The notes beneath the pieces were generated by a model. That model was not told where the DNA came from. It ran no database searches and saw only the letters and a list, made by a program, of their open reading frames with translations. Both the position numbers and the translations under genes were made by a program. A DNA stretch of 39,181 nucleotides from a bacterium (lineage in GTDB: Bacteria > Patescibacteriota > Minisyncoccia > Minisyncoccales > JANBVM01), in assembly GCA_030665965.1 (NCBI GenBank), contig DAOUYT010000003.1, positions 1 through 39,181 of the forward strand, in the 5' to 3' direction. Positions within the stretch are counted from its first letter, which is position 1, and every line of letters starts with the position of its first letter. This document shows, piece after piece, positions 2,454 through 31,483 of the stretch.

Positions 2454-3107
2454 ATGCAATATCTAACTCAAAAAGAGTTGAAGGAAATGATGCTCCTTTC
2501 CCATGAAAGAATAGAAAGAGAAAAAGAAGAAATCAACAAAATCAATATTTTTCCAGTACCAGACCAGGACACAGGAGACAATCTTACAAAAACCTTACTG
2601 GGAATAAAAGAGGCGATTCAAGGAAAAGAGTTTAAAGATTTAAAAGAGATTTCAGAAGTTATTTTAGATGGAGCCTTAACCTGTGCCCAGGGAAATGCCG
2701 GTGTAATATATACCGGTTTTTTAGCTGGTTTTTTGCCTGAACTGGATAAAGAACCGGTTGATATCAAAAAAATAGCCTTGGCTTTTGAAAAAGGAGCAGA
2801 AAGAGCCAGGGAAAGCATCCAAGACCCCAAAGAAGGAACAATATTAGATGTAATTGAAGCTGCAGCCTCGGTATTCAAACAAGAGGCAGAAAAGGAAAAG
2901 GATATTATTGAGGTTTTCAAAAAAGCTGAAAAAAAGGCCAGCGAGGCTCTGCTGGAAACCAGGGAGAAAATGGAAATCTTTAAAAAAGCCAATGTTGTTG
3001 ATGCCGGAGGATTGGGTTTTTTAATTATTTTAGAAAGTTATCTGGATTCATTAAAGGGCAGGAAACAGGCTAAAGCGAAAAAAGAAGAAAAAGCTTCAAA
3101 AAGATAA
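2454..3107 (+). CDS. fakA: Dak2-domain ATP-binding part of a fatty acid kinase (FakA-like), frameshifted C-terminally
   Basis: The 217-residue product is a DhaL/Dak2 kinase domain. It shows the metal-binding PVPDQDTGDN segment (about 34-43), the CAQGNAG nucleotide loop (about 76-82) and a VVDAGGLGF helix end near 180-188, as in the N-terminus of YloV/FakA. FakA phosphorylates a FakB-bound fatty acid to acyl-phosphate. After a Lys-rich linker the frame stops at 3105-3107. The usual FakA middle domain continues without a break in the -1 frame from 3074, leading into a DegV domain. One additional A in the A-run at 3098-3102 would join both parts into one protein of about 590 residues. Whether this is a mutation, assembly error or recoding cannot be told here. 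Confidence 0.82.
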   Translation: MQYLTQKELKEMMLLSHERIEREKEEINKINIFPVPDQDTGDNLTKTLLGIKEAIQGKEFKDLKEISEVILDGALTCAQGNAGVIYTGFLAGFLPELDKEPVDIKKIALAFEKGAERARESIQDPKEGTILDVIEAAASVFKQEAEKEKDIIEVFKKAEKKASEALLETREKMEIFKKANVVDAGGLGFLIILESYLDSLKGRKQAKAKKEEKASKR

Positions 3108-3244
3108 AAAGATTTGTTCAGCTACTTTCAAACCGCTATGAAGTTGTTTCATTAATAGAAAATCCCAAGATTGAGGCACGAGCACTTCAAGAAAAATTAA
3201 GAAAACTGGGAAACTCCATAGATATTGTCCAGGGCGGAAATAAA

Positions 3245-4234
3245 ATGAAAATTCACATCCATACTGATTATCCAGACGAAGTAAAGAATGTTCTCAAACA
3301 GACAGGTCAAATTCAAAGTTTAAGAATTGAAGATATGGCAAAAGAAGTAGCGGGAGAGGAATCTGTTAGAAAGGTTTCCATAGGAATTGTTACTGAGGAT
3401 ATATCAACCCTCTTGCCAAAAATCATTGAGAGATACCAAATTGAATTGGTTTTTGCTAAATTAGACTGGCCGCCTGAAAAAGATTTGCCAGGAAAGAATA
3501 TTTATGAAAAGTTAAGAGAAGCAGACAAAAGAGGAATGAAAATCTTTCCAAAGACTTCTCAGGCAATGCCAGGGTCCTATCTCAATGCTTTTAAAAAACA
3601 ATTAAAAAAATTTGACAAGGTTTTGTGCATTACCATGTCTTCTAAGGTTTCAGGATGCTATGACTCAGCCAAACAAGCCCAAACAATGATTCAGAAACCA
3701 AAAAGCATATTTATCCTTGATTCTTTAAGCGGGGCTGCCGGTGAGGCACTTTTAGTCTTGAGGGCAATTGAATTAATTCAAGAACAAAGAGAAATTAATG
3801 AGATTATTAAAGAGCTTAAAAAAGAAATATCTAAAACTCATCTTTATCTTGTTTTTGAAGATCCCAAATGGATAGAGGCTTCTGGTAGAATCACTGAGAG
3901 TCAGGCCAACTGGATAAGGAGAATGAAAAAATTAAAATTTCATCCCATAATGGAATTAAAAAATGGAGTAATTGGAAAGGGGGGGGTAGTCTTTGCTCAG
4001 GATACGGCCGAAGCCTTATTAAAGAAAATTTTAAAAGAAAGTAAAAGAGCAAGAAAACAGGGTAAAAAAATCAGGGTCATAATTAACCATTCCGATAATT
4101 TACAAACAGCCAACAAATTAAAGAAAATGTTGAAAGGGAAAATAAAGGTTGAAGTTCCTTTTATCTCTTTAAACCCTCCTCTATTTTCTGCTGCAGGCCC
4201 TGGGACCTTGATTGTCGGATGGGCAGCAATTTAG
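3245..4234 (+). CDS. FakA middle-domain remnant plus DegV (FakB-like) fatty-acid-binding domain
   Basis: The first possible ATG is 3245, but conserved coding extends upstream in the same frame to 3074, with no ATG, GTG or TTG between. The true start is therefore probably that of the Dak2 gene at 2454, read through a -1 frameshift. The N-terminus holds KIHIHTDYP and a following segment typical of the FakA domain after Dak2. From about residue 44 a DegV fold follows, with a TSQAMPGS motif (about 99-106), an iSS-x-SG motif (MSSKVSG, about 127-133), a DSLSGAAG segment and a C-terminal GPGTLIVGW. DegV proteins are FakB: they hold the acyl chain for the kinase. Kinase and fatty-acid carrier would thus be one chain here, whereas FakA and FakB are usually separate. 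Confidence 0.8.
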   Translation: MKIHIHTDYPDEVKNVLKQTGQIQSLRIEDMAKEVAGEESVRKVSIGIVTEDISTLLPKIIERYQIELVFAKLDWPPEKDLPGKNIYEKLREADKRGMKIFPKTSQAMPGSYLNAFKKQLKKFDKVLCITMSSKVSGCYDSAKQAQTMIQKPKSIFILDSLSGAAGEALLVLRAIELIQEQREINEIIKELKKEISKTHLYLVFEDPKWIEASGRITESQANWIRRMKKLKFHPIMELKNGVIGKGGVVFAQDTAEALLKKILKESKRARKQGKKIRVIINHSDNLQTANKLKKMLKGKIKVEVPFISLNPPLFSAAGPGTLIVGWAAI

Positions 4235-4254: not shown

Positions 4255-5379
4255 ATGTATATAAAAGGGGTGGGATTGACAAAATTTGATTATTCTCAAA
4301 AAGCCTGGTGGCAGCAGGCTTTTGAAGCTGCCATGGAAGCCCTGGAAGATGCCAGAATGAAAATTTCTGATATTGATGCTATTGTCTTGTCAGCTATTTC
4401 CAGTGCTGCTGGCGGCGAACACCAGACCCATAAAGTCTCTCTGATTTCTGATCTGTTTAAGACCAATGTTCCTATTATTGAAACCCCTTCTGTTTGTTCA
4501 GGCGGAGGGGTAGCAGTATGGACAGCCAATCGCCTTGGCTTTAATAATGTCCTGGTGGTGAGCGGAGAAAAATTGGTAGATAATCGCAGCGAGATTACAG
4601 TAGACTGGATACTGTCTGCAGCAGAAAGGGTAATTGAACAACCAGAAGGATTGCTCTTTCCGGTCCAGAATGCCTTGGTGTGGCAACAATATATGAAAAG
4701 ATACAAGGCCACCATGGATGATTTAGCTTTAATTGCTTTCAAGAATCATAAGAATGCTGTCTTAAACCCCAAAGCCTATTATTATAAACGTCCTGTTTCT
4801 CTAGAAAAGATTAAGAATTCTCCTGTTGTTACCTCGCCCCTGCGGCTGCTGGATTGCTCTCTGTCTGTTAATGGAGGGGGAGCTGTCATTCTTTCAAAAG
4901 AAAAAACCGACATTGAGATTATCGGTTCTGGTTTTGCCACTGATTATCTCTTAACCTTTGGAAGAAAACAAACCCATCATTTTAAAGCCACAAGGATAGC
5001 GGCAAAACAGGCTTTTGAACAAGCAGGGCTAAGACCAGAAGACATTGAGGTTGCCGAGGTTCATGATGCCTTTACTTCAGTAGAATTATTCTCTTATGAG
5101 GATTTGGGATTTGCTCAGATAGGAAAGGGAGCAGAATTAATAAGGTCAGGTAAGGTGAATTTAGAAGGTAAATTACCCATCAATACCTCAGGAGGCTTGA
5201 AAGCCAAAGGCCATCCCATCTCTGTTTCTGGTCTGGCCCAGATATACGAGATTGTTAGTCAGATGCGGGGGAGATGCGGTGAAAGACAGATAAATCCTGC
5301 TCCTGAGATTGGATTGTGTCATAATATTGGCGGAACAGGGGGCAGCGTTACCGTTCACATTCTTAAAAAAACTATTTAG
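4255..5379 (+). CDS. Archaeal/SCP2-type thiolase (acetyl-CoA C-acyltransferase-like)
   Basis: Cytoplasmic condensing or cleaving enzyme acting on acyl-CoA thioesters. The 374-residue protein is shorter than classical FadA/AtoB thiolases (about 390) and matches the archaeal class. The nucleophile is Cys81 in SVCSGGG; the catalytic His is in EVHDAF (about 270-275); GGLKAKGHP (about 305-313) gives the second His; the C-terminus has CHNIGGTGG. It uses no decarboxylation and no ACP, so it differs from FabB/F/H. In archaea this class works in a complex with a DUF35 protein and HMG-CoA synthase. Here a DUF35 fusion is encoded just beyond the convergent gene, but no HMG-CoA synthase is. Proposed role: chain-elongating Claisen condensation in the adjacent fatty-acid cycle (inference). 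Its 3' end overlaps the convergent gene by 8 nt. No Shine-Dalgarno is present; TAAAAT at 4235 may be a -10 box. Confidence 0.9.
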   Translation: MYIKGVGLTKFDYSQKAWWQQAFEAAMEALEDARMKISDIDAIVLSAISSAAGGEHQTHKVSLISDLFKTNVPIIETPSVCSGGGVAVWTANRLGFNNVLVVSGEKLVDNRSEITVDWILSAAERVIEQPEGLLFPVQNALVWQQYMKRYKATMDDLALIAFKNHKNAVLNPKAYYYKRPVSLEKIKNSPVVTSPLRLLDCSLSVNGGGAVILSKEKTDIEIIGSGFATDYLLTFGRKQTHHFKATRIAAKQAFEQAGLRPEDIEVAEVHDAFTSVELFSYEDLGFAQIGKGAELIRSGKVNLEGKLPINTSGGLKAKGHPISVSGLAQIYEIVSQMRGRCGERQINPAPEIGLCHNIGGTGGSVTVHILKKTI

Positions 5380-5860
5380 TTTGAAATCTTTTTAAAAGTT
5401 CTTTTAAGCTTTTTTTTATTCCTCTAGAAACCTCGATTAAACAAATTCCTTTGTCTAAAAAACCATAGACCACAGCATTGTTTTCTTCTGAAAGCAAGAC
5501 AGCTGGTATCACCAGGAGATCTTCCTCACCGTCAATAAAAACATTCTTGTTTTCTTTAATTGCTTTTTCAATTACTGTCCAGACCTCTTTTTGAATGGTT
5601 CCCGGCGGATTTGAACACCTGAGGGAAAAAGGTGGAAATTTCTTTATTCTCTTCCTATTGATTTTTCCGTCAAAAATCTTAACATCAGAAGAAAGACTTA
5701 AAGAACAGCGGTCCCCAACAGTAATTATTTTTTTAAATTTTTTATTCTTAACAATCCTTTCATATTCTTTAATGACTTTCTTTTCATCTCCAAATATGGG
5801 TATTCCCCAAATCTTTCTTAATTCTAGTCTAAGTTTTTCTGGCAAAAGAAGAGTTTCCAT
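5372..5860 (-). CDS. GTP-dependent dephospho-CoA kinase (DUF359 family, archaeal type)
   Basis: Last step of CoA synthesis: transfers phosphate from GTP to dephospho-CoA. The 162-residue protein has the diagnostic DUF359 pattern: TVGD at 47-50, FDGK at 63-66, NPPGTI at 84-89, DGEEDL at 110-115 followed by VIPAVLL, and VYGF near 131-134. The characterised family members are archaeal, and the fold is unrelated to bacterial CoaE. It is the only minus-strand gene inside the lipid island. It is convergent with the thiolase (8 nt overlap) and divergent from the DUF35-DUF362 gene (20 nt apart). Supplying CoA next to a thiolase fits a CoA-based acyl pathway. Confidence 0.85.
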   Translation of the reverse strand: METLLLPEKLRLELRKIWGIPIFGDEKKVIKEYERIVKNKKFKKIITVGDRCSLSLSSDVKIFDGKINRKRIKKFPPFSLRCSNPPGTIQKEVWTVIEKAIKENKNVFIDGEEDLLVIPAVLLSEENNAVVYGFLDKGICLIEVSRGIKKSLKELLKRFQTK

Positions 5861-5880: not shown

Positions 5881-6939
5881 ATGGCTTTTTATCAATGTTC
5901 AAAATGTAAAAATACCTGGCAGTATCCAATCAAGAAATGTCCTGATTGTTTTTTAAAGTTGAAAAGGGTTAAAAGTAAAAAGATGACGGTAATCGGTGTT
6001 TCCAAGGTTAACATTCCTACAATCTCCCACCCCACAGTGCCTTATTTTGTCCTGCTATTGGAAGATGAAAAAGGCAACAAATGGAGCCATAAATCAGTTA
6101 AAGAACACAAAGAGGGCGAGGAATTGAGATTAGAACCTGTTCAAAAAAAAGAAGCTGTTTCAATCTGGCGGGTAAAATATGACATATTGGAAGCAATGGA
6201 AAAAGTCATTGATTTAATAGGGAAACCTGCAATTAATCAAAATTCCAGGATTCTGATTTTGCCCACCCTTATTGTTCCCAAACATCCCCATTTTGCCCAA
6301 AATACCAGTCCTCAGTTCTTAGAAGGCATGATTAAGTATTTAATTGAGAGAGGAGTCAGTCCTAAAAACATTAAGGTAGCTTCCCAGAGTTTTAATGATT
6401 TTCCCATTGAAGCTTCTGCCCAAAAATCTCAGCTATTGGCTGTTTGTCTTAAAAATACAATCACTCCTTTGGATCTGGCTAAAACGAATTTTATAAAAAA
6501 AGAAAAAGACGGTATTGTATTTGAGATTTCCCAAGAACTCTTTAACAATGATTTGATAATTAATCTACCTATATTAAAGATTGATCCAAAATTAAAAATA
6601 AAGGGAGCCGGGCAAAATGTTTTTAAGTTTCTCAAAAAAGAATCCTATCTTTCTCTAACATATCTTCATGAATATCAAGATTTGCTAAGAAAAATCCAAG
6701 ATATTCTGCCTGATTATTTAACCGTGGCTGAAGCAATATCAATTCAGAGATCAACCGGCTATACCACTCTTCTGGGCTTGATATTAGCTGGCTTTAATTC
6801 TTTTAATATAGACAGGGTTTTTGCTGAAATCACAATGATAAAAGATTTGCCAAGATACCTTAAAAGTATTAAAATCGAAGATATTCCGGTGATAGGAAGA
6901 CAGGTTGAGGAACTGCAATATGATGTTGAAAAATTCTAA
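5881..6939 (+). CDS. DUF35 zinc-ribbon/OB-fold protein fused to a DUF362-like domain
   Basis: A 352-residue two-domain protein. Residues 1-100 are a DUF35 domain: a zinc ribbon with Cys6, Cys9, Cys20 and Cys23, then a beta-rich OB-like part. DUF35 proteins bind beside archaeal thiolases and bridge acyl-CoA between condensing enzymes. Residues 115-350 look like a DUF362 domain: an ILILPTLI strand (canonical KPN replaced), a TSPQFLEGMIKYLIERG helix, a LIINLPILK segment (canonical INLPK.K), a GQNVFKFL stretch and a late GYTTLLGLILAG segment. DUF362 has no established function and no iron-sulfur cysteines are seen here. I know of no described fusion of this kind. It is followed by bioY with a 20 nt overlap. 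The divergent start is 20 nt from the kinase gene. Confidence 0.75.
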   Translation: MAFYQCSKCKNTWQYPIKKCPDCFLKLKRVKSKKMTVIGVSKVNIPTISHPTVPYFVLLLEDEKGNKWSHKSVKEHKEGEELRLEPVQKKEAVSIWRVKYDILEAMEKVIDLIGKPAINQNSRILILPTLIVPKHPHFAQNTSPQFLEGMIKYLIERGVSPKNIKVASQSFNDFPIEASAQKSQLLAVCLKNTITPLDLAKTNFIKKEKDGIVFEISQELFNNDLIINLPILKIDPKLKIKGAGQNVFKFLKKESYLSLTYLHEYQDLLRKIQDILPDYLTVAEAISIQRSTGYTTLLGLILAGFNSFNIDRVFAEITMIKDLPRYLKSIKIEDIPVIGRQVEELQYDVEKF

Positions 6940-7528
6940 TGCTAAAAATCCAATATTGATTGAAACAGTCTTGCCAGAGATTAAAGACAAGGTTTTGGTA
7001 TTGGCAAAAGATATTGTGTTGGTTCTGGGTTTTGCCATTTTAACGGGCATCTCTGCTAAATTAAAGATTGAAATAGGTCTGGTTCCTCTAACCATGCAGA
7101 CAGTGGTGGTTCTCTTGAGCGGAGCTTTATTAGGGCAGAAAAAAGGAGCAGCTTGCCAACTCACTTATCTGATGGCAGGATTAATCGGCCTTCCCTGGTT
7201 TTCCCGGGGAGGGGGATTAATATATATCCTGAGTCCCACCTTCGGCTATATCCTGGGGTTTGTATTGGCTGCCTATTTAACCGGAGGTTTGGTTGAAAAA
7301 GGATGGAACAGAAATACTGCTACAGCTGTCCTGATAATGCTGGCTGGAAACATTGTTATTTATATTCCCGGGCTTTTGTGGTTAGCAAGATTTGTCGGAA
7401 TTTCAAAAATATTAACTGTCGGTCTCTATCCTTTTATTTTAGGAGATACATTAAAGATATTTTTAGCAGGTTTAATCTTATCTTTTAACAGAATGGTTTT
7501 TGAAAAAACAAAGGCCAAAACATTATAA
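6920..7528 (+). CDS. bioY: BioY-family biotin transporter (S component)
   Basis: Membrane substrate-binding component for biotin uptake, alone or with an ECF module. The roughly 200-residue protein has six hydrophobic segments and the family's PLTMQTVVVLLSGALLG stretch, GLPWF followed by a glycine run, and PTFGYILGF. I place the start at ATG 6920 (or 6923), inside the 3' end of the previous gene; upstream codons in this frame would add only a non-conserved TTG start. No EcfA/EcfT genes are in the window. Context is telling: biotin carboxylase, carrier protein and biotin ligase lie downstream and no biotin synthesis genes are seen, so the cell probably imports biotin for this carboxylase. Confidence 0.9.
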   Translation: MMLKNSNAKNPILIETVLPEIKDKVLVLAKDIVLVLGFAILTGISAKLKIEIGLVPLTMQTVVVLLSGALLGQKKGAACQLTYLMAGLIGLPWFSRGGGLIYILSPTFGYILGFVLAAYLTGGLVEKGWNRNTATAVLIMLAGNIVIYIPGLLWLARFVGISKILTVGLYPFILGDTLKIFLAGLILSFNRMVFEKTKAKTL

Positions 7529-7570: not shown

Positions 7571-8311
7571 ATGTTTAAAAATAAAGTTGTTTTAATCACT
7601 GGTTCTTCCCAAGGAATTGGCAGGGCTATTGCTTTAAAATTTGCTTCTCTGGAAGCTGAAGTGGCTTTAAATGACATATCCAGCCAGGAAGACAATTTAA
7701 AAGCACTAAAACAAGAGGTTGAGAAAAAAGGAGGGAAAGCCCGGTATTTTTTAGCTGATGTTTCAAAACTAGAAGAAGTGGAAAGAATGGTCCAGCAGAT
7801 ACAAAAAGACTTCGGTAGATTGAATGTCCTGGTCAATAATGCAGGAATCTGTAAAGATAAAACCCTGGCAAAAATGACAAAAGAAGACTGGCAAAAGGTA
7901 ATTGACATTGATTTAACAGGCGTATTCAACTGTGCCAAGGCCAGCCTGCCTTTAATTATTCAAAACCAGGGAAAAATTATTAATATGTCTTCTCTGGTCG
8001 GCCAGGTGGGAAATTTCGGTCAAACAAACTATGCTGCAGCCAAAGCAGGCATTATTGGTTTTACCAAATCTCTAGCCAAGGAATTGGGAAGATTCAAGGT
8101 AACGGTAAATGCTATAGCCCCAGGTTTTATTGAAACCAGGCTTACCGAAAACCTACCAGAAGGATTTAAGATGCAGGTAAAAAAAATAACTCCCCTGGCT
8201 AGATTTGGCAAACCAGAAGAAATAGCTGAATTGGTTGCTTTTTTGGCTTCAGAAAAAGCAGATTTCATAACAGGGACTGTCATTAATATTAATGGAGGAT
8301 TGACAATATGA
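7571..8311 (+). CDS. fabG: 3-oxoacyl-ACP/CoA reductase FabG
   Basis: NADPH-dependent reduction of 3-oxoacyl thioester, first reductive step of fatty acid elongation. The 246-residue short-chain dehydrogenase has a TGSSQGIG cofactor loop at 10-17, NNAG near 89-92, the catalytic serine in NMSS (about 138-140), Tyr154 and Lys158 in YAAAKAG, and the C-terminal TGTVININGG typical of FabG. Whether it uses ACP or CoA substrates is unknown; no ACP is encoded here. The ATG lies 4 nt after an AT-rich -10-like run (TATATATT) and no Shine-Dalgarno is seen, so a transcript may start here. The stop overlaps the next start (ATGA). Confidence 0.92.
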   Translation: MFKNKVVLITGSSQGIGRAIALKFASLEAEVALNDISSQEDNLKALKQEVEKKGGKARYFLADVSKLEEVERMVQQIQKDFGRLNVLVNNAGICKDKTLAKMTKEDWQKVIDIDLTGVFNCAKASLPLIIQNQGKIINMSSLVGQVGNFGQTNYAAAKAGIIGFTKSLAKELGRFKVTVNAIAPGFIETRLTENLPEGFKMQVKKITPLARFGKPEEIAELVAFLASEKADFITGTVININGGLTI

Positions 8312-9804
8312 TGATGAATAAAGACCAAATTAAAAAAATCATTCCTTATGACGATCCTTTTTTATGGGTGGATGAGGTAGAGGATATCAAAGGAAATACC
8401 ATTGTTGCTTATAAATACACTTCTGTTAAAGACCCTTACTTTAAAGGTCATTTCACTGATTTTCCAATTATGCCAGGTGTCTTGCTTGTAGAAGGAATGG
8501 CCCAGACAGGAAGCATACTCTTAAGAAAGGAAATGGGAGAGGGTCATAAACAAAAACATCTCCTGGCTTATCGAGTGAGAAGTGCCCAGTTTGACAAACC
8601 CATTTTTCCTGGAGACAAAATAAAATATGAGGTTAAACTTCTGGGATTTTATGGTTATAAAATTGCTAATTTTAAAGGAAAGGCATTTGTGAAAGACGAG
8701 AAAAAATGTGAAGTAAGGTTTACGGTTGCTGTTGTGGACAAACATGAGTTTAAAGAAAAACACCTGAGGGAAAGACAGGGAAAACCCCTGACCCAAACAA
8801 AACTGCCTCCTTTAAGGATTGGAAACATTTTTGCCAAGATTCCCATTATCCAGGGAGGAATGGCAGTAAGGGTCTCATTGCATAATTTAGCTGGAAACGT
8901 GGCTAAACAAGGGGCAGTGGGTATTGTTGCTGTTTCTGGAATGCAAGACCCAAATGAGGTTAAATCAGAAATAAGACAGGCTAGAAAGATTGCCGGACCC
9001 AAAGGAATTATTGGAATAAATATCATGGGTGTAGCAAGCCACTTTATTAAATTGGTGAAAGCAGCCATGGAAGAAAGGGTTGATTTAATTATTCAGGGGG
9101 CAGGATTTAGAGAAGATATTTTTGATTTAGGGAGAAAATACAATGTTCCCATATTCTCAATGGCTTCATCTGTCAAGGTTGCCAAAAAAGGAGAAGCTAT
9201 GGGGGCAGCAGCCATAGTTGTTGAGGGAATGGACGCCGGAGGCCACCTCGGATTTCCAAAGGGCCATCCTTTCAGAAAAACCATTGATATTGTCAAAGAG
9301 GTGGTAAAAGAAGTCAAGACCCCTGTAATTGCTGCTGGAGGCATATATGATGGAAAAGACATTGTAGAAATGTTAAGGGCAGGAGCCAAAGGGGTTCAGA
9401 TGGCAACCAGATTTGTGGCAACCAAGGAATGCGATGTCCATCAAAAATTTAAAGAGGCCTACCTGAGAGCTAAGAAAGAAGATGTTGTGATTATTCATTC
9501 TCCTGTTGGATTACCGGGCAGGGCGATTAAAACTCCTTTGGTTAAAAAGATTTTAGAAGGGAAAGCGCCAAAACCAGACCCCAAAAAATGCGAGGGGTGT
9601 ATAGGAATAGTTTGTGATAAAAGCTATTGTATCCTGGAAGTTTTAGAAAATGCCCGGAAAGGCGACCTGGAAAATGGATTGGTTTTTGCAGGTTCCAATG
9701 TCTGGAGGGTTAATAAAATAGTCTCAGTAAAAGAACTAATTCAGGAATTGGTAACAGAGACAAATGAAATCTTAAAACATCAACCCTTGCTCATTATCTC
9801 TTAA
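8308..9804 (+). CDS. FabZ-FabK fusion: 3-hydroxyacyl dehydratase plus flavin enoyl reductase
   Basis: A 498-residue fusion of two successive steps of the fatty acid cycle. Residues 1-145 are a FabZ hot-dog domain with catalytic His48 in FKGHF, PIMPGV and Glu62 in LVEGMAQ. Residues 165-490 form a TIM-barrel nitronate-monooxygenase/FabK domain with PIIQGGMA, DAGGHLG (His313), AAGGIYDG and GVQMATRF, the FMN-binding pattern. A Cys cluster (KKCEGCIG, then VCDKSYC, about 430-445) follows and is unusual. A separate, more canonical FabK is encoded immediately downstream, so this domain could reduce a different chain length or be regulatory. Three ATG codons in a row start the gene, with GGAGG 9 nt upstream of the first, which overlaps the fabG stop by 4 nt. 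Confidence 0.88.
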   Translation: MMMNKDQIKKIIPYDDPFLWVDEVEDIKGNTIVAYKYTSVKDPYFKGHFTDFPIMPGVLLVEGMAQTGSILLRKEMGEGHKQKHLLAYRVRSAQFDKPIFPGDKIKYEVKLLGFYGYKIANFKGKAFVKDEKKCEVRFTVAVVDKHEFKEKHLRERQGKPLTQTKLPPLRIGNIFAKIPIIQGGMAVRVSLHNLAGNVAKQGAVGIVAVSGMQDPNEVKSEIRQARKIAGPKGIIGINIMGVASHFIKLVKAAMEERVDLIIQGAGFREDIFDLGRKYNVPIFSMASSVKVAKKGEAMGAAAIVVEGMDAGGHLGFPKGHPFRKTIDIVKEVVKEVKTPVIAAGGIYDGKDIVEMLRAGAKGVQMATRFVATKECDVHQKFKEAYLRAKKEDVVIIHSPVGLPGRAIKTPLVKKILEGKAPKPDPKKCEGCIGIVCDKSYCILEVLENARKGDLENGLVFAGSNVWRVNKIVSVKELIQELVTETNEILKHQPLLIIS

Positions 9805-9863: not shown

Positions 9864-10802
9864 ATGTTCAGTACTAAACTCACCCAACTCTTAAACATTA
9901 AATATCCCATCATCCAGGGGGGGATGGCCGGGGTTTCAGATTCAGCCCTGGTTTCAGCTGTCTCCAATGCCGGGGGACTGGGGGTCATTGGTTCTGGGTT
10001 CCTTCCTCCTGACTGGCTTGAACAAGAGATTAAAAAGACAAAGAGTCTGACCGATAAACCATTTGGGGTTAATCTCTTAATGCAAAATCCAAAGGTGGCT
10101 GAATTAATAAAAGTGGTGATTAAACAAAAGATTCCTGTTGTTTTCACTGGAGGAGGCAATCCCCTTGCCTTATTCCCCTATTTGAAGAAAGTGGGAATTA
10201 AAATTATCCCTGTGGTTTCTTTAGTAAGATTGGCTAAAAAGATGGAGCAAAACGGAGCTGATGCCGTGGTAATGGAAGGACTTGAGTCTGGAGGCCACAT
10301 TGGCAAAATCACCACAATGGTTCTCATTCCTCAGGCAAAAAAAGCAATACAAAAGATTCCTTTGATTGCTGCTGGAGGTATTTATGACGGAAAAACCACT
10401 GCTGCTGTCTTTTTGTTGGGGGCTGATGGAGTCCAGATGGGAACAAGGTTTTTAGCCAGCAAGGAATGCCAGATTCATGAGAATTATAAAAAGGCTGTTT
10501 TAGAGGCAAGCGATGAAAATATTGTTGTGGTGGCAAGGTTTACCGGTCATCCGGTAAGGGCAATAGAAAACGAACTGACCAAAAGGGTTCAAAAACTGGA
10601 GGAGAAAAATCCCTTTCCCGAGGAACTAAGTGCAGATAAATTTTCCAGTTCAAAGATAGCAAACGGAAACATATCCCAGGCCCCACTGCTCTGCGGGCTT
10701 TGTGCTGGAGGAATCTCTGAAATTAAAAGCTGTAAGGAAATAATAGAGGGTATCATAAAAGATTCCACAAAAATCATGAAAGAAACAGCAGAGAAATTAT
10801 GA
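9864..10802 (+). CDS. fabK: Enoyl-ACP/CoA reductase II FabK
   Basis: FMN-dependent NAD(P)H enoyl thioester reductase. The 312-residue protein has the full-length FabK layout: YPIIQGGMAGVSD near the N-terminus, NLLM, VVFTGGGNP, ESGGHIG with His145 (equivalent to the active-site His of Streptococcus pneumoniae FabK), AAGGIYDGKT, GVQMGTRF, and a C-terminal LCGLCAGG segment. Nitronate monooxygenase is the alternative, but operon context favours FabK. The fabG-fabZK-fabK order gives ketoreduction, dehydration and enoyl reduction in series. TATAAA lies 4 nt before the ATG and there is no Shine-Dalgarno. The stop overlaps the next gene by 4 nt (ATGA). Confidence 0.9.
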   Translation: MFSTKLTQLLNIKYPIIQGGMAGVSDSALVSAVSNAGGLGVIGSGFLPPDWLEQEIKKTKSLTDKPFGVNLLMQNPKVAELIKVVIKQKIPVVFTGGGNPLALFPYLKKVGIKIIPVVSLVRLAKKMEQNGADAVVMEGLESGGHIGKITTMVLIPQAKKAIQKIPLIAAGGIYDGKTTAAVFLLGADGVQMGTRFLASKECQIHENYKKAVLEASDENIVVVARFTGHPVRAIENELTKRVQKLEEKNPFPEELSADKFSSSKIANGNISQAPLLCGLCAGGISEIKSCKEIIEGIIKDSTKIMKETAEKL

Positions 10803-11461
10803 ACAGGGCAGTCTCTTGGTTTTGTAAAATCTTTCTTGCTCCTATTGTTAAAAGATTATTCATAAAAGAAGTGAGGGGATGGAAGAATATTCCCAGGGGA
10901 AATTTTATCCTGGCCACAAACCATCAGAGTCATTTAGATGAGTTGGTCACAGCTTATATCTGTGTTCCCAGGAGATATCACTTTATTGGCCAGACCGATA
11001 CCTATAAGGGCTTTACCAAACTGTCTTTATATATCCTGTATTTCATTGCCGGGGTCATCCGTTTAAACAGGAAAAAGGAGGAATCAAAGAAAAAAGTAGT
11101 AACAGAAGCCATTGAGGTTTTAAAAAAAGGAGACAGTCTTATAATCTATCCTGAAGGCACGAGGACCAGAACAGGTGAAATGAGCAAGGGTAAATGGGGA
11201 ATAGCCAAGATTTTTCTGGAAACAGGCGTTCCTATTTTGCCCATGGCAATTAAAGGAACCTTCGAGCTTATGCCTCCTGGAGGAAAACTAAAAATAGAAA
11301 GGTTGATTAAAATCAATATTGGCAAACCCCTTTATTTTACAAAAGAGCTTGAAAGAATAAAAAAGATTAGTCAGGATTCCGAAGAAAACAAAGAGATTCT
11401 TGTTAAGATTACAGACAAGGTGATGGAAAAAATTGCTTCTTTGAAATCAGAACTAGACTAA
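10799..11461 (+). CDS. plsC: 1-acylglycerol-3-phosphate acyltransferase PlsC
   Basis: Adds the second acyl chain to lysophosphatidate, giving phosphatidate. The 220-residue protein has the HX4D motif at His42-Asp47 (NHQSHLDE), a conserved arginine/asparagine block near 88-92 (RLNRK), and the phosphate-binding PEGTR at 118-122. One hydrophobic stretch sits near 75-88. Canonical length and motifs suggest full activity; acyl donor (CoA or ACP) cannot be assigned. Translationally coupled to fabK through a 4 nt overlap. A paralogue follows 31 nt downstream. Confidence 0.9.
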   Translation: MNRAVSWFCKIFLAPIVKRLFIKEVRGWKNIPRGNFILATNHQSHLDELVTAYICVPRRYHFIGQTDTYKGFTKLSLYILYFIAGVIRLNRKKEESKKKVVTEAIEVLKKGDSLIIYPEGTRTRTGEMSKGKWGIAKIFLETGVPILPMAIKGTFELMPPGGKLKIERLIKINIGKPLYFTKELERIKKISQDSEENKEILVKITDKVMEKIASLKSELD

Positions 11462-11492
11462 TAAGGTTTAATTTAACGATTTAATACTAATC

Positions 11493-12134
11493 ATGAAAAC
11501 TTTTTTTGTTTATCTTTGTAAATTATTTCTTTTTCCTGTTGCAGGTCTTTTTACCCGGGAAATAAAAGGAAAGGAAAATATTCCCAAAGGGAACAGTTTT
11601 ATTATTGCCTCAAACCACATCAATAGTCTGGATTATTGGTTTATAGGAGATATCTTAAAAGAAAGAACAAGAGACCTGCGTTTTGTTGCTGCCATGGATA
11701 ATCTTAAGACCTTGCTGCAGTCAGGGCTTCTTTATTATTCTTCTGGTGCTATTGTGATAAACAGGAAAAGGGGAGAAAGGGAAGGTATTATTAAAAAAAT
11801 AATCAAAAACCTGGAAAATAAAAAGATTGTCGTTCTTTTTCCAGAAGGGAATACTAATTCCAGAAAAAAGCTCTTGAAGGGAAAGACCGGCGTTGCAGAA
11901 TTAGCTCTCAAATCAGGGGTCCCTGTAATTCCTTTTGGAATAAGGAAGGCAGAAAATTCACTTAAAAGAATAATTGAAATAGGGAAACCTCTGTGTTTTT
12001 CAGAAGAAAGAAAACTGTTAAACCAGACAGAAAATAATCAAGAAAAATACCACATGTTTTTAAGAGACATTACCAATAAAATAATGCAGGAAATATCCAA
12101 GCTGTCTCAAAAATCTTATATCTATGACAATTAA
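11493..12134 (+). CDS. Second PlsC-like acyltransferase (divergent motif III)
   Basis: A 213-residue paralogue of the previous protein. It keeps HX4D at His42-Asp47 (NHINSLDY) and a VINRKRG block near 88-94. The phosphate-site motif reads FPEGNTN at about 117-123 instead of PEGTR, so the conserved arginine position is changed. This suggests a different acceptor or acyl preference, for example the first acylation or a lipid other than lysophosphatidate. No Shine-Dalgarno; TAATAC lies 7 nt before the ATG. The 3' end overlaps accC by 11 nt. Confidence 0.8.
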   Translation: MKTFFVYLCKLFLFPVAGLFTREIKGKENIPKGNSFIIASNHINSLDYWFIGDILKERTRDLRFVAAMDNLKTLLQSGLLYYSSGAIVINRKRGEREGIIKKIIKNLENKKIVVLFPEGNTNSRKKLLKGKTGVAELALKSGVPVIPFGIRKAENSLKRIIEIGKPLCFSEERKLLNQTENNQEKYHMFLRDITNKIMQEISKLSQKSYIYDN

Positions 12135-13668
12135 AAAAATTCTCATTGCCAATCGGGGCGAGATTGCCCTGCGGATAATCCGGACCTGCCAGGAAATGGA
12201 TATTAAAACAGTTGCTCTCTGTCCCTTGCCAGGCCAAGAACAAAACTTCCTTGAAACAAGGCTGGCTGACGAATATTATTTTTTGGAAAAAGAAGGGGCA
12301 GCAGGTTATCTCGACAAGAAAAAGATTATTGAAATTGCCAAAAAAGCCAGGGCTGATGCCATTCATCCAGGTTACGGATTTTTGGCTGAAAACTGGAGGT
12401 TTGCCAAGCTCTGCCAGAAGAAGAAAATCTGGTTTATTGGACCTCATTTTAAGACTTTAAAAAAACTGGAAGATAAAATTGAAGCAAAAAAGATAGCCCG
12501 AAAAATGGGTATTCCCACCCTGCCGGCCAGCAAGGGCCCGATTAAAACAAAAAAGGATTTGGTGAAATGGGTGAAAGAGATTAAACCTCCTTTTATTTTA
12601 AAAGCCCAGAAAGGAGGAGGAGGAATTGGCATTCGGGTAATCAATGGTAAGATTGATTTTGGAGACCTTTTCACCATATCAGCTGGAATCCAAAGACAGA
12701 TAGCTACAGCTTTTTCTGAAACAGATTTCTTTCTTGAAAAACACCTTCCTAATGCAAGACATATCGAGGTTCAGATATTGGGAGACAGAAATAAGGTCGT
12801 TCATTTAGGAGAAAGGGAATGCACCATTCAAAGAAGGTTCCAAAAACTGTTTGAAGAAGCACCCTCTCCTTTTCTTGATGAACAAGAAAGAAAAAAAATA
12901 AGAATGTTGGCAGTAAATTTGGGTAAATACTTAAGATATCAAGGGGCAGGTACGGTTGAATTCCTGGCAGATGAGAATAAAAATCTTTATTTCTTAGAAG
13001 TCAATCCTAGGCTCCAGGTAGAACATCCTGTGACTGAAGCTGTAACCGGCATTGACATAGTAGAACAGCAGATAAGGATTGCCCAGGGCCAGGGTATTCC
13101 TTTTTCTCAAGATGATATCTTCTTTAATGGATGGGCAATGGAAGCAAGAATTAATGCCGAAGATCCCAAAAAGAATTTCCGGCCCAACCCGGGAATAATC
13201 CAAAAATATATTCCCCCTGGAGGTCAAAGAATCTTCTTGCATACTTTTTTACATGAAGGACAGGAGATTTATCCTTATTTTGATTCCCTTTTGGCAAAAG
13301 TTATTGCTCATGGAAAAACAAGAAAGGAAGCTATTTCTCGATTAAAAAGGGCTTTAGATGAAATAGTTATTGAGGGCGTTCCAACCACCATTCCCTTATT
13401 CAAGCTTCTTTTAAAGAATGAAGATTTTCTAAAAGGAAACTTTACCACCAATTTTATTGAAAAAAGCAATATCCTGGAAAAATTGTCACCCCAGCCCTGC
13501 ATCAGAATGCCTGTTAAAATAAAGGATATGGAGAAAAAAGAAATTGCCCAAATAGTCTTTCAGATTTATAAAAGCCTGAGGTTGGACAAAACCCTGCCTG
13601 AAAAAAGGAGTCTTGTCTCAAACTGGGTAATGGCAGAAAGATTAAAAATGTTCAAAGAAGAATTATGA
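12124..13668 (+). CDS. accC: Biotin carboxylase subunit of acyl-CoA carboxylase
   Basis: ATP-dependent carboxylation of the biotin on the carrier protein. The 514-residue protein has the N-terminal ANRGEIALRIIR, HPGYGFLAEN, an ATP-grasp glycine loop (KGGGGIGIRV, about 159-168), HIEVQILGD, GERECTIQRR, and EVNPRLQVEHPVTE with the carboxylation-site arginine. It is longer than E. coli AccC (449) by a C-terminal extension of about 60 residues that I do not recognise; this extension may be linked to holoenzyme assembly as in acyl-CoA carboxylase alpha chains, but it lacks a biotinyl domain. The start overlaps the upstream acyltransferase by 11 nt and the stop overlaps the carrier gene by 4 nt. Confidence 0.93.
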   Translation: MTIKKILIANRGEIALRIIRTCQEMDIKTVALCPLPGQEQNFLETRLADEYYFLEKEGAAGYLDKKKIIEIAKKARADAIHPGYGFLAENWRFAKLCQKKKIWFIGPHFKTLKKLEDKIEAKKIARKMGIPTLPASKGPIKTKKDLVKWVKEIKPPFILKAQKGGGGIGIRVINGKIDFGDLFTISAGIQRQIATAFSETDFFLEKHLPNARHIEVQILGDRNKVVHLGERECTIQRRFQKLFEEAPSPFLDEQERKKIRMLAVNLGKYLRYQGAGTVEFLADENKNLYFLEVNPRLQVEHPVTEAVTGIDIVEQQIRIAQGQGIPFSQDDIFFNGWAMEARINAEDPKKNFRPNPGIIQKYIPPGGQRIFLHTFLHEGQEIYPYFDSLLAKVIAHGKTRKEAISRLKRALDEIVIEGVPTTIPLFKLLLKNEDFLKGNFTTNFIEKSNILEKLSPQPCIRMPVKIKDMEKKEIAQIVFQIYKSLRLDKTLPEKRSLVSNWVMAERLKMFKEEL

Positions 13669-14048
13669 AGCTGAAGTTAAACATAAAGGGGAAGGAATAT
13701 ACTGTTGAAATCCAAGAAACAGACAGAGACACGGTAAAAATAAGAGTACAAGGAGAGGAATTTGTTTTTAAACAAAAAAAAGAAGAAGAAAAGGTTTTGG
13801 TTGCTAAATCCTCTCTTCCTAAAAGAGATTTTAAGGAAAAGAGGATTAAAGCTCCCATTGCCGGAATAATCTCAGAGGTTTTTGTCAAAGAAAAGGATGT
13901 TATTAAAAAAGGTAAAAAAGTTATTTTATTGTCAGCAATGAAAATGGAAAATGAAATAATCTCTGACTTTGAAGGAAGGGTAAAAAAGGTCTCTGTCAAA
14001 AAAGACCAAAAGGTCAAAGAAGGGGATATTTTAATTGTTTTGGAATAA
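13665..14048 (+). CDS. Biotin carboxyl carrier protein
   Basis: A 127-residue biotinyl protein that carries carboxyl-biotin between the carboxylase and carboxyltransferase. The biotinylation site is Lys93 in SAMKMENE; KAPIAGIISEV marks the start of the barrel domain. The N-terminal 45 residues form a short beta-rich segment and a Lys/Glu linker, like the small gamma-type carriers of acyl-CoA carboxylases or decarboxylases rather than the long AccB with a Pro/Ala linker. The 4 nt overlap with accC and 1 nt overlap with the ligase gene give a tightly coupled set: carboxylase, carrier, ligase, transferase. Confidence 0.93.
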   Translation: MKLKLNIKGKEYTVEIQETDRDTVKIRVQGEEFVFKQKKEEEKVLVAKSSLPKRDFKEKRIKAPIAGIISEVFVKEKDVIKKGKKVILLSAMKMENEIISDFEGRVKKVSVKKDQKVKEGDILIVLE

Positions 14049-14566
14049 TGAAAATAAAAAGATATAAACGTGTTTCTTCAACAAACACCTTGGTAAAAAA
14101 ACTAAAACCTGAACCCTGGCTGGTTGTCTTGGCTCAAGAACAAACTGCTGGATACGGCAGAAAGAAAAATTACTGGTTTTCTCCAAAGGGCGGCCTTTAT
14201 TTTTCAATCATTCTGCCCAAAAGCACTATTGATGATTTGCAGACCCTTACCCTCCTGGCTGCCTTTGTGGTGGCAAAGGTAATAAAAGAAAGGTTTAAGG
14301 TGGAACCCTTTATAAAACTGCCAAACGATGTTTATCTTAACCAAAAAAAGATAGCTGGCATCTTAACTGAAACAGTAGTGGGTTCAGATGTTAAATTCTC
14401 AATAATGGGCATTGGTTTAAACACCAATATTGATACATTTCCAAAAGAACTGGAAAATATTGCCACATCCCTTAAAATAGAATTAGGTAAAAGAATAGAT
14501 AATGAAAAGGTCTTGAAGGAAATTGTAAAATATATTAAAAAACAACTGAAAACAATCAGTGAATAA
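14048..14566 (+). CDS. birA: Biotin-protein ligase (catalytic domain only)
   Basis: Joins biotin to the carrier lysine using ATP. The 172-residue protein is a minimal ligase without the N-terminal DNA-binding domain of E. coli BirA and with a shortened C-terminus. Seen motifs: a STNTL segment (about 10-14), the GYGRKK adenylate loop (about 35-40), KLPNDVYLNQKKIAGIL (about 90-106) with the catalytic lysine, and GIGLNTN. With no HTH domain it cannot be a direct biotin repressor. It starts at the last base of the carrier stop (TAATG). Position between carrier and transferase fits dedicated modification of this enzyme. Confidence 0.9.
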   Translation: MKIKRYKRVSSTNTLVKKLKPEPWLVVLAQEQTAGYGRKKNYWFSPKGGLYFSIILPKSTIDDLQTLTLLAAFVVAKVIKERFKVEPFIKLPNDVYLNQKKIAGILTETVVGSDVKFSIMGIGLNTNIDTFPKELENIATSLKIELGKRIDNEKVLKEIVKYIKKQLKTISE

Positions 14567-14570
14567 AAAT

Positions 14571-16121
14571 ATGGCTTTTGAAAAAGAAAGGGAGAAATTA
14601 AACAAAAAAATAAAAGACCTGGAAAATCCCGAGCTGATTGAAAAGCAGCGCCAGAAAGGAAAACTGACTGCCAGGGAAAGAATCAACCTGCTCTTGGATC
14701 CAGGCAGTTTTGTTGAACTGGATCCTTTTGTTGAAACCAGGTTTAATAATTTTGGATTGGATAAGAAAAAGTTTCCAGGGGATGCAGTAATTACTGGTTT
14801 TGGAAAAGTGAATAACAACCAGATTTATGTTTATAGCCAGGATTTTTCAAAGATAGGAGGGTCTCTGGGCGAAATGCATGCTAAAAAGATTGTAAAGATC
14901 ATTAATCTGGCTAGAAAAAATGGATGTCCTGTAACAGGTATCATTGATTCAGGTGGAGCCAGGATACAGGAAGGCATATCCAGTCTTGATGGTTATGCTG
15001 CCATCTTTAGGGCAATGATTAAGGCTTCCGGGGTTATTCCTCAAATCTCTGTAATTGTGGGACCCTCAGCTGGAGGGGCCTGTTATACTCCTGGCCTGTC
15101 AGACTTTATCTTCATGGTCCAGGGAATCTCCCAGATGTATATCACAGGACCTGAGGTCATTAAAGGAGTAACCGGAGAAAAGATTTCTTTTGAAGATTTA
15201 GGAGGTGCCAATGTCCACAATTCAAAAAGTGGTTGCGCTCATTTTTCTTTTGACTCTGAAAAAGAGTGTTTTTTTGCAGTAAAAAAGATTCTTTCTTATC
15301 TGCCTCAAAATAATCTGGAAGATCCTCCAAAAGAAAGAAGCATATTAGCTGAGTTCTTTGAAAGAGAAGAAAACTACAGATTACAGGAAATAGTGCCGGA
15401 AAAAGAAGAAAAAAGCTATGACATGAAAGAATTAATTGAAGAGGTTTTTGATAAGAAGTCTTTCTTTGAAATCCAATCCCGGTTTGCCTTAAACGCAATA
15501 ATAGGTTTTGCCAGACTGGGAGGATCTGTGGTTGGTATTGTGGCAAACCAAACAAAATTTATGGCCGGCACCCTTGATATTAATTCCTCTGATAAGATTG
15601 CTCGTTTTGTCAGGTTCTGTGATTCATTCAACATTCCTTTAATCAATCTGGTGGATACACCTGGTTATCTTCCTGGCACCAACCAGGAAAAGAAAGGAAT
15701 CATCCGCCATGGTGCCAAGGTCTTGTATGCTTTTGCTGAAGCTACTGTTCCTAAAATCAGCTTAATTTTAAGAAAGGCTTTTGGGGGAGCATATATTGCT
15801 TTGGCTTCAAGACACCTGGGATATGACATTGTTATTGCCTGGCCATCAGCTCAGATTGCAGTAATGGGTCCAGAACAAGCAGCAAGAATCATTTACAAGA
15901 AAGAATTATTAAAAAGCAAAGATCCAAAAAAACTGGAGAAAGAAAAAATTCAAGAACTAAAAGAATACTTTCTCAATCCTTACCAGGCAGCCAAACTCGG
16001 CCAAGTGGATATGATTATTCATCCCAAAGACACCAGGATTGTTTTAATCAAGTGTCTGGAATCCCTTGTCAATAAAAGAGAAAGTAAGATTGCCAGAAAA
16101 CACGGAAACATACCCCTTTAA
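14571..16121 (+). CDS. Acyl-CoA carboxylase carboxyltransferase (PccB/MmdA type)
   Basis: Transfers carboxyl from biotin to acetyl-CoA, propionyl-CoA or another acyl-CoA. From ATG 14571 it is 516 residues; a GTG at 14559 inside birA would add four unconserved residues. Visible motifs: KGKLTARERINLLLDPGSF near the N-terminus, DSGGARIQEG, GPSAGGACY (N-terminal oxyanion site), LVDTPGYLPG, and a C-terminal GGAY followed by AWPSAQIAVMGPEQA. This is the fused beta chain typical of PccB and archaeal acyl-CoA carboxylases, not the split AccA/AccD of most bacteria. Malonyl-CoA is a plausible product, but substrate choice cannot be read here. With its three upstream neighbours it makes a complete enzyme. 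Confidence 0.92.
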   Translation: MAFEKEREKLNKKIKDLENPELIEKQRQKGKLTARERINLLLDPGSFVELDPFVETRFNNFGLDKKKFPGDAVITGFGKVNNNQIYVYSQDFSKIGGSLGEMHAKKIVKIINLARKNGCPVTGIIDSGGARIQEGISSLDGYAAIFRAMIKASGVIPQISVIVGPSAGGACYTPGLSDFIFMVQGISQMYITGPEVIKGVTGEKISFEDLGGANVHNSKSGCAHFSFDSEKECFFAVKKILSYLPQNNLEDPPKERSILAEFFEREENYRLQEIVPEKEEKSYDMKELIEEVFDKKSFFEIQSRFALNAIIGFARLGGSVVGIVANQTKFMAGTLDINSSDKIARFVRFCDSFNIPLINLVDTPGYLPGTNQEKKGIIRHGAKVLYAFAEATVPKISLILRKAFGGAYIALASRHLGYDIVIAWPSAQIAVMGPEQAARIIYKKELLKSKDPKKLEKEKIQELKEYFLNPYQAAKLGQVDMIIHPKDTRIVLIKCLESLVNKRESKIARKHGNIPL

Positions 16122-30253: not shown

Positions 30254-30400
30254 CTACCACCGTTTAAAAACGGTGACTTCCTGTTTCATAGTCGGGAGTA
30301 TTCTCTCAACTCCACAGGCGTTGATTCCCGTAGTTCCTACGGTAGTTAATGCTAATTTAAGTATGTTTCTGGCTGCATTAATGTCTCTATCTATTGTTAA
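30254..30400 (-). ncRNA. Probable omega/reRNA of TnpB
   Basis: In this family the guide RNA is made from the 3' end of tnpB and the right end, with the guide being the first about 16-20 bases beyond the element. Here that would be the minus-strand sequence of roughly 30234-30253, matching the 3' end of the PilX-like gene. The limits are estimates from family knowledge; only the terminal hairpin is seen. Confidence 0.4.
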
Positions 30401-31459
30401 TCCACATTTGGGACATTTATGGGTTCTAATAGCTAATGATTTTGGAACAATGTTTCCGCAACCACTACATAATTGAGTTGTATTCTCGGGACTAACTTCT
30501 ACTGCCCACACACCAGCCTCTTCCGCTTTGTAGGTGAGCTGTTGGAGAAATCTATTCCAAGAAGCATCGACAATTGATTTAGCTAAATACTTGTTCTTTG
30601 TCATTCCTTTAATGTTAAGTTTCTCAAAGGCAATGAGTTGGAAGCTCTTGACTAATTGATGACTTAATTTGTGAAGAAAATCTAATCTTTGATTGGTTAT
30701 TTTTTCGTGTAGTTGAGCTATTTTTAATCTTGATTTCTTACGATTAGAGCTTTTTAGCTTTTTCTTGGAGTGTTTTCTCTGGATTTTAGATAGCTTTTCT
30801 TCTGATTTTCTCAAGTATCTCGGATTGTCTATCTTCTCTCCTTGATTAGTAGTTAAAAAAGTTGTTAGTCCCACATCTAAACCAACTATCTGTCTAATTT
30901 TCTTTTTATTCTGTCCTGTTTTTGCTGCTTCTATTGAGAAACAGGCGTACCACTTGTTAGTGTTTGTTCTCCTGATGGTTAATGTCTTAATACTTCCTTC
31001 AAGTTCTCGGTGGAGCTTGATTTTAAGGGAGCCTATCTTAGAAAGATTGAGCTTGTTGTCTTTCAGTTGAAACCCTGATTGAGGATAGACAAAACTGTCA
31101 TATCTCCAATGTCCTTTAAACCTGGGGTAGCCTGGTTTCTGCTTCCTGCCATTTTTATTCTTTTTAACCCTTCTGAAAAAGCCTTGAAATGCCTTATCTA
31201 ATCTCCTAACTACATCTTGAAGGGTCTGAGAATAGACATTCTGTAATTCTGGTTTTTCTTTTTTAAGTTTTGGGATTTGCTTGATTTGGTCATAGCAGGT
31301 AATCTTTCTTTTGTTGTTTTCATAAAGAGTTTTTCTTTCTTCTAAGAAATGGTTGTAGATCCAACGACAAAGAGAAAGGTGTTTCTCAAGAAGAGCTTGC
31401 TGGATCTCGGTTGGATATAGTCTGTATTTGTAGGTTTTCTTCAGAATTTGCCTAGTCAT
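30254..31459 (-). CDS. tnpB: RNA-guided nuclease TnpB (IS605 OrfB)
   Basis: A 401-residue TnpB. Its RuvC catalytic residues are all present: Asp195 (GLDVG), Glu279 (AFEKLNIKG) and Asp359 (DRDINAARN). A zinc ribbon uses Cys331, Cys334, Cys349 and Cys352. N-terminal helix-turn region KYRLYPTEIQ and a typical basic arginine-lysine stretch follow. TnpB proteins cut DNA guided by an RNA from the element's right end, which helps the element persist at its site. No truncation. Stop at 30254-30256 lies within the right-end hairpin region; the start is 24 nt from tnpA. Confidence 0.93.
   Translation of the reverse strand: MTRQILKKTYKYRLYPTEIQQALLEKHLSLCRWIYNHFLEERKTLYENNKRKITCYDQIKQIPKLKKEKPELQNVYSQTLQDVVRRLDKAFQGFFRRVKKNKNGRKQKPGYPRFKGHWRYDSFVYPQSGFQLKDNKLNLSKIGSLKIKLHRELEGSIKTLTIRRTNTNKWYACFSIEAAKTGQNKKKIRQIVGLDVGLTTFLTTNQGEKIDNPRYLRKSEEKLSKIQRKHSKKKLKSSNRKKSRLKIAQLHEKITNQRLDFLHKLSHQLVKSFQLIAFEKLNIKGMTKNKYLAKSIVDASWNRFLQQLTYKAEEAGVWAVEVSPENTTQLCSGCGNIVPKSLAIRTHKCPKCGLTIDRDINAARNILKLALTTVGTTGINACGVERILPTMKQEVTVFKRW
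30258..30275. repeat. Right-end hairpin of the IS200/IS605 element
   Basis: Perfect 8-bp inverted repeat CACCGTTT/AAACGGTG with a two-base spacer, subterminal and overlapping the last codons of tnpB. Such hairpins are bound by TnpA as single-stranded DNA. Confidence 0.7.
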
Positions 31460-31483
31460 TACTATTATGATACCATATGGTTA
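31460..31483. promoter_or_regulatory. Divergent tnpA/tnpB spacer
   Basis: Only 24 nt separate the two start codons. It includes TATGAT (plus strand -10-like) and the palindrome CCATATGG, so both transcripts would have very short leaders. Confidence 0.4.

Follow-up and report, generated by a model that had tools for sequence, protein, structure and literature searches.

The window, that is, the whole 39,181-nucleotide stretch of DNA that was analysed, comes from a small draft genome (0.47 Mb in 33 contigs, 91% complete) whose relatives are Parcubacteria/Paceibacterota, and carries a thiolase gene, a gene joining a DUF35-type domain to a DUF362 domain (P0001) and a series of lipid-synthesis genes downstream (Table 1). 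The frame of the fusion gene is open over exactly 5881-6939 of the forward strand and is complete, and the opposite strand is rich in stops. A convergent DUF359 gene sits alone between the thiolase and the fusion, a position that recurs in many relatives, and the start codon of the BioY gene is uncertain, its listed frame overlapping the 3' end of the fusion gene. The FabK-like gene at 9864-10802 is a second, separate copy after the FabZ-NMO/FabK fusion at 8308-9804. Scans for promoters and terminators gave signals at chance level. Relatives of the fusion were also sought among plasmids and viral contigs and none were found, so at that search sensitivity it is not a mobile-element gene.

Table 1. 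Features of the thiolase and DUF35-DUF362 locus (positions in the window; residue numbers refer to the encoded protein).
Feature	Position	Strand	Basis or detail
SCP2-type thiolase, 374 aa	4255..5379	+	Cys81 nucleophile, HDAF 270-273, GHP His320
HDAF codons of thiolase, Ala in place of HDCF Cys	5062..5073	+	thiolase alignment
DUF359 archaeal-type GTP-dependent dephospho-CoA kinase	5372..5860	-	PF04019 E 1.3e-26; NF041125 E 3.8e-19
DUF35-DUF362 fusion gene P0001	5881..6939	+	352 aa
DUF35-type domain, residues 1-100, zinc ribbon and OB fold (predicted)	5881..6180	+	fold and profile matches
Zinc ribbon C6-x2-C9-x10-C20-x2-C23	5896..5949	+	sequence; 4 Cys invariant in alignment A5
DUF362 domain, residues 115-352, Pfam core 124-315, LarA-clan fold (predicted)	6223..6936	+	PF04015, Foldseek
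BioY biotin transporter	6905..7528	+	PF02632 E 2.3e-39
FabG-like ketoreductase	7571..8311	+	PF13561 E 9.5e-69
FabZ dehydratase fused to NMO/FabK-like flavoprotein	8308..9804	+	PF07977, PF03060; FabZ and FabK NCBIfam models
FabK-like enoyl reductase	9864..10802	+	TIGR03151 E 9.5e-111
Two PlsC-type acyltransferases	10799..12134 (10799-11461, 11493-12134)	+	PF01553
Acyl-CoA carboxylase set: biotin carboxylase, BCCP, biotin ligase, carboxyltransferase	12124..16121	+	

Elsewhere in the window, a CarS-like CDP-archaeol synthase gene (1231-1785, +; PF01864, E 9.3e-30) lies close to this bacterial lipid operon. Parts of a fatty acid kinase at 2454-4234 (+), a DAK2 (FakA) frame and then a frame in which the last part of the middle domain of FakA is joined to DegV (FakB), look like a split or rearranged FakA-FakB. 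By inspection, 30254-31888 holds an IS200/IS605-like pair, consisting of a TnpB-like frame (-) with a zinc finger at its C-terminal end and a small Y1-transposase-like frame (+).

A preliminary description of this DNA had proposed that the N-terminal half of P0001 is a DUF35 domain, and the ribbon pattern, the fold match of the AlphaFold2 model and weak profile matches agree on this. The cysteines C6, C9, C20 and C23 are an exact fit to CX2CX10CX2C, the pattern of the DUF35 C4 ribbon (PMC12329534). A profile of the N-terminal half searched against the PDB gave two weak best matches, both DUF35 proteins (6esq_E, E 0.022, then 6htj, E 0.04), and a profile of the whole chain found no sequence there. 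In the single-chain AlphaFold2 model (pLDDT 93.2, pTM 0.91) the N-terminal half was matched by Foldseek, with probability 1.00, to the DUF35 chains 7pyt, 7pxp, 6ok1, 5m3k and 6esq; the nearest is a subunit of benzoylsuccinyl-CoA thiolase (7pxp/7pyt), and the matches also include ChsH2-Ltp2, PhlABC and the archaeal thiolase/HMG-CoA synthase complex. Pfam DUF35 models found no match in P0001 at E<=1 or in the 32 members of the family alignment at E<=0.01, and a PF01796 search over the whole source genome found no DUF35. Because the fold and the motif agree with DUF35 while the Pfam DUF35 cut-off is not reached, we call this half DUF35-type: it is so by motif and modelled fold, not as a Pfam member.

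The C-terminal half is, by Pfam, a member of DUF362, as had been proposed. PF04015 aligns residues 124-315 to positions 1-199 of the 200 in the model (E 1.5e-13) and scores 51.7 bits against a curated cut-off of 24, no other family matches, and the landmarks on which the proposal drew were located at residues 142-149 (TSPQFLEG), 226-233 (IINLPILK) and 299-304 (GLILAG). A chance match is excluded because every one of the 32 aligned family members is hit by PF04015. Foldseek placed this half with the LarA-fold structures 7s91, 9q3j and 6d6z (probability 1.00, TM-score about 0.43-0.45), and Pfam clan CL0471 holds both DUF362 and DUF2088/LarA (PMC11770544). The model of an archaeal member of the fusion family (pLDDT 88, pTM 0.89) folded in the same way, and its halves again matched DUF35 and the LarA fold. 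In the P0001 model the high pTM speaks for a fixed placement of the two predicted domains relative to each other.

The thiolase upstream is of SCP2 type, as judged from Cys81 and His320 in its sequence, and is without the acid/base cysteine that in SCP2-type thiolases comes from the HDCF loop (PMC7682436). Ala occupies that position in all 26 Parcubacterial and all 22 DPANN partner thiolases, and Gly (HDGF) in the two others, giving 48 Ala, 2 Gly and no Cys among the 50 partner thiolases compared, and Cys81, the HDxF His and the GHP His are invariant across all thiolases compared. The cysteine is kept in 6esq, in the SCP2-thiolase 6hsj and in three distinct thiolases encoded beside fusions of DUF35 to 3-hydroxyacyl-CoA dehydrogenase (3HCDH). 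A GLC cysteine near the C-terminus of the thiolase was weighed as a candidate for the acid/base residue and discarded: in the alignment it falls next to the CxG position, not on it, and many relatives have Thr or Ala instead. Acetyl-CoA acetyltransferases and benzoylsuccinyl-CoA thiolase are among the top PDB matches of the thiolase. Ketoacyl synthases decarboxylate a malonyl donor, and a thiolase with Cys-His-His and no acid/base cysteine resembles these enzymes in its catalytic residues. The loss of this cysteine, together with the carboxylase genes in the operon, suggests a condensation that uses malonyl-CoA, although HDAF is also found in benzoylsuccinyl-CoA thiolase (7pxp) and in 7yvy, so that the loss is no proof of decarboxylative chemistry. 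CtSal, a related DUF35-bound enzyme whose equivalent motif retains a Cys, showed no decarboxylation of malonyl-CoA (PMC12329534).

The gene order around the fusion is a conserved one. In Parcubacteria it runs thiolase, DUF359 kinase (in reverse), fusion, BioY, FabG, FabZ-NMO and FabK, followed by PlsC, biotin carboxylase, BCCP, biotin ligase and carboxyltransferase, and from thiolase to carboxyltransferase it is kept, with variations, across some 34 genomes of many genera. Patescibacteria have been described as being without fatty acid biosynthesis (PMC12455944). The source genome (G000) does not have the gene content of type II (ACP-dependent) fatty acid synthesis, ACP (PF00550) and ketoacyl-ACP synthase (PF00109) both being absent from an assembly whose 91% completeness limits all such calls of absence. 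A ketoacyl synthase was found in 4 of the 147 genomes of an order-level sample that includes G000, none of them with the fusion, which leaves the thiolase as the one condensing enzyme detected in the fusion genomes. ACP turned up in just two of the fusion genomes, as a single domain within an 837-aa frame in G002 and as a weak hit in G038.

Matches to the fusion occurred in 41 of the 147 genomes and a true fusion in 39 of them (33 with near-full-length and 6 with partial members); G027 and G140 were left out of the count as only the DUF362 part matches and their proteins look standalone. Close orthologues of the partner thiolase were found in 36 genomes, 35 of which also have the fusion, and this bears out the proposed link to the thiolase. 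The four genomes with the fusion only are two in which it is cut by a contig edge (G004, G056), one with a fragment (G019) and one in which it lies on a 4.5-kb contig (G131). Outside the order, two genomes of one family among 380 Patescibacteria encode a thiolase and then DUF35-DUF362, with FabG next in one of them (L106). The fusion is also present in three DPANN MAGs (two Woesearchaeota and one Nanoarchaeota) and in 15 of the 327 genomes of the DPANN phylum to which G520 belongs, and the archaeal fusions adjoin thiolase genes or fragments, sometimes on both sides. The expectation that the pair would recur was thus upheld, and the DUF35-DUF362 pair is no accident. In a tree of the DUF362 halves the standalone proteins all fall on one side of a supported branch (97/88), and a single fusion event may for this reason underlie all of these chains. 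Our literature search, which left subscription papers mostly outside, found no paper describing a DUF35-DUF362 fusion.

Several further features were noted in DPANN members. Three fusions of about 490 aa (L096, L097 and L119) have lost the four zinc-ribbon cysteines. In L096, L097, L119, L122, L124 and L128 a thiolase gene flanks the fusion on both sides, which suggests that a single DUF35-DUF362 subunit may serve two thiolases there. The fusions L096, L097, L115-L121 and L123 (about 456-491 aa) have some 110 extra residues at the C-terminus, which are absent in Parcubacteria and gave no Pfam match in L096 and L097.

Fused DUF362 domains were compared with 15 standalone DUF362 proteins, and nine positions (K127, P128, N129, T142, K233, H235, K245, N246 and H260 in P0001 numbering) were invariant in all 15; the motif K127/N129/K233/H235/K245/N246/H260 was found in this comparison and lies outside the Pfam definition. 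Parcubacterial fusions have K127L and N129T, H235 is Asp or missing, K245 is Gln or (mostly) Glu and H260 is lost. The K233-H235 segment is variable among them; P0001 keeps both K233 and N246, and N246 only is kept throughout. The DPANN fusions are intermediate (K127, K233 and an (N/Q)GP motif kept, K245 changed to Glu, H235 often Asn or Asp) and the two Patescibacterial fusions from outside the order are more degenerate still. The DUF362 half is also the fastest-evolving among the operon proteins compared, with a mean pairwise identity of 47% against 56% for the DUF35 half, 65% for FabK, 69% for FabG and 73% for the thiolase. LarC (PF01969) was absent from all fusion genomes sampled, only G013 and G136, both without the fusion, having it. 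Motif loss, fast evolution and the absence of LarC together make a role in structure or binding more likely than the chemistry that DUF362 originally carried out. The fused domain may still retain an altered activity, since N141, P144, Q169, N228, N246 and K253 remain invariant in Parcubacteria, and K127, K233 and the (N/Q)GP motif persist in the DPANN chains. The preliminary description had held that DUF362 acts on, or shields, the acyl-CoA intermediate; the first of these is weakened in this lineage by the replaced motif residues and fast evolution, and the second is compatible with what was found.

We consider it about an even bet (a probability of roughly 0.5) that a condensing 'thiolase' uses malonyl-CoA to build fatty acids without ACP, that the fusion is its obligate partner, and that the DUF362 half serves as a rigid cap. 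The fusion would be a dedicated subunit of the adjoining thiolase, and the two together would form the condensing enzyme of a CoA-based, ACP-free operon. Its DUF35 half would dock on the thiolase and shape the CoA/acyl cleft, as judged from solved complexes in which DUF35 is docked on a thiolase-fold enzyme (PMC12329534). The carbanion would arise by decarboxylation of malonyl-CoA rather than by deprotonation of acetyl-CoA, with Cys-His-His chemistry as in ketoacyl-ACP synthases, a step that we infer because there is no acid/base cysteine and there is an acetyl-CoA carboxylase in the operon. The DUF362 half, held rigidly beside the thiolase as a cap or scaffold, is probably non-catalytic and may bind the acyl-CoA, or dock the next enzyme, in place of ACP. 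More tentatively, and with the balance somewhat against it, CPR bacteria and DPANN archaea may have in common a distinct kind of fatty acid synthase, in which an SCP2-type thiolase has become a decarboxylative ketoacyl-CoA synthase and an obligate partner, the DUF35-DUF362 subunit, takes the place of ACP in holding the growing acyl-CoA.

The DUF362 half might instead be an active enzyme on the substrate or product of the thiolase, for example a malonyl-CoA decarboxylase or an acyl-transfer enzyme, and supply the thiolase by way of a shared CoA site, in the manner of the hydratase or dehydrogenase domains fused to DUF35 elsewhere. Other DUF35 domains are indeed fused to enzymes, namely to MaoC hydratases (PMC12329534) and to 3-hydroxyacyl-CoA dehydrogenase in one member of the Micrarchaeota, one other archaeon and one Nitrospirae MAG, and the DPANN fusions retain part of the DUF362 motifs; however, five residues invariant in the 15 standalone proteins (K127, N129, H235, K245 and H260) are lost in the Parcubacterial half, this half evolves faster than anything else compared, and FabG, FabZ and FabK already cover the remaining steps of the cycle, so we consider an active enzyme unlikely. 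A nickel-pincer-nucleotide racemase of LarA type, acting on a 2-hydroxyacyl group, is far less probable again. The shared Pfam clan and the probability of 1.00 for the LarA-fold matches speak for it, but the folds agree in part (TM-score about 0.4), the fused domain has lost both of the histidines that never vary in standalone DUF362, and LarC, which inserts nickel for the cofactor, is missing from the sampled fusion genomes. With LarC absent from these genomes a nickel-pincer function was rejected, and the DUF362 half of the fusion is not a LarA enzyme.

It is also conceivable, though a little less so than an active DUF362 enzyme, that the pair serves a catabolic or ketogenic route (thiolysis or formation of acetoacetyl-CoA) and lies among lipid genes incidentally. 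The PDB matches of the thiolase to acetyl-CoA acetyltransferases and benzoylsuccinyl-CoA thiolase would suit such a route; against it, the thiolase is the sole condensing enzyme detected in the fusion genomes, it lies within a conserved biosynthetic block with ACC, FabZ, FabK and PlsC, and its acid/base cysteine is gone. Since the window belongs to a draft assembly, one might suspect that the two domains were joined by chance or by an error of assembly, but the same chain in 39/147 Parcubacterial genomes, two other Patescibacteria and 15/327 DPANN-phylum genomes, from separate assemblies, makes this the least credible explanation and a negligible one.

The operon, found in many genera, points to a complete CoA-based and ACP-free route to fatty acids in one branch of Patescibacteria. 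The same thiolase/DUF35-DUF362 core occurs in DPANN archaea. The DUF362 domain gains a defined molecular context, and fatty acid synthesis without ACP becomes open to experiment with a few soluble proteins of small size.

The closest known systems share parts of this arrangement. The archaeal acetoacetyl-CoA thiolase/DUF35/HMG-CoA synthase complex (6ESQ, 6ET9) also pairs an SCP2-type thiolase with a DUF35 partner, and its DUF35 chain in 6ESQ is both the best profile match to the N-terminal half of P0001 and a fold match, but there DUF35 is free-standing and not fused to DUF362, HMG-CoA synthase is a third partner and the thiolase keeps HDCF. Benzoylsuccinyl-CoA thiolase BbsAB (7PXP, 7PYT) provides the nearest DUF35 fold match and has a thiolase with HDAF, yet it is without DUF362 and belongs to a degradative pathway. 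Among standalone DUF362 proteins (PF04015), including the ferredoxin-carrying L129, which are homologous to the C-terminal domain of P0001 over the Pfam cut-off, the KPN, KTH, GAVKN and GNGP-type motifs are kept and most have C-terminal 4Fe-4S motifs, whereas the fused domain lacks the Fe-S part and has most motif residues replaced. The LarA/DUF2088 racemases are in the same Pfam clan and match the fold in part, but LarC was not found in the fusion genomes sampled, and nothing there points to the nickel-pincer cofactor. The DUF35-3HCDH fusions L099, L100 and L103, whose hosts are a member of the Micrarchaeota, an archaeon and a Nitrospirae MAG, have a homologous N-terminal domain encoded directly 3' of a thiolase, but with 3HCDH as the fused partner and with HDCF kept in the thiolase. 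In Shy-Sal and ChsH1-ChsH2-Ltp2 (6OK1) a fused DUF35 docking domain anchors a partner on an enzyme of thiolase fold, as proposed here, although that partner is a MaoC hydratase and the pathway is steroid side-chain degradation. By analogy, the fusion would work like the DUF35-tethered thiolase partners of Shy-Sal, ChsH2-Ltp2 and the archaeal thiolase complex.
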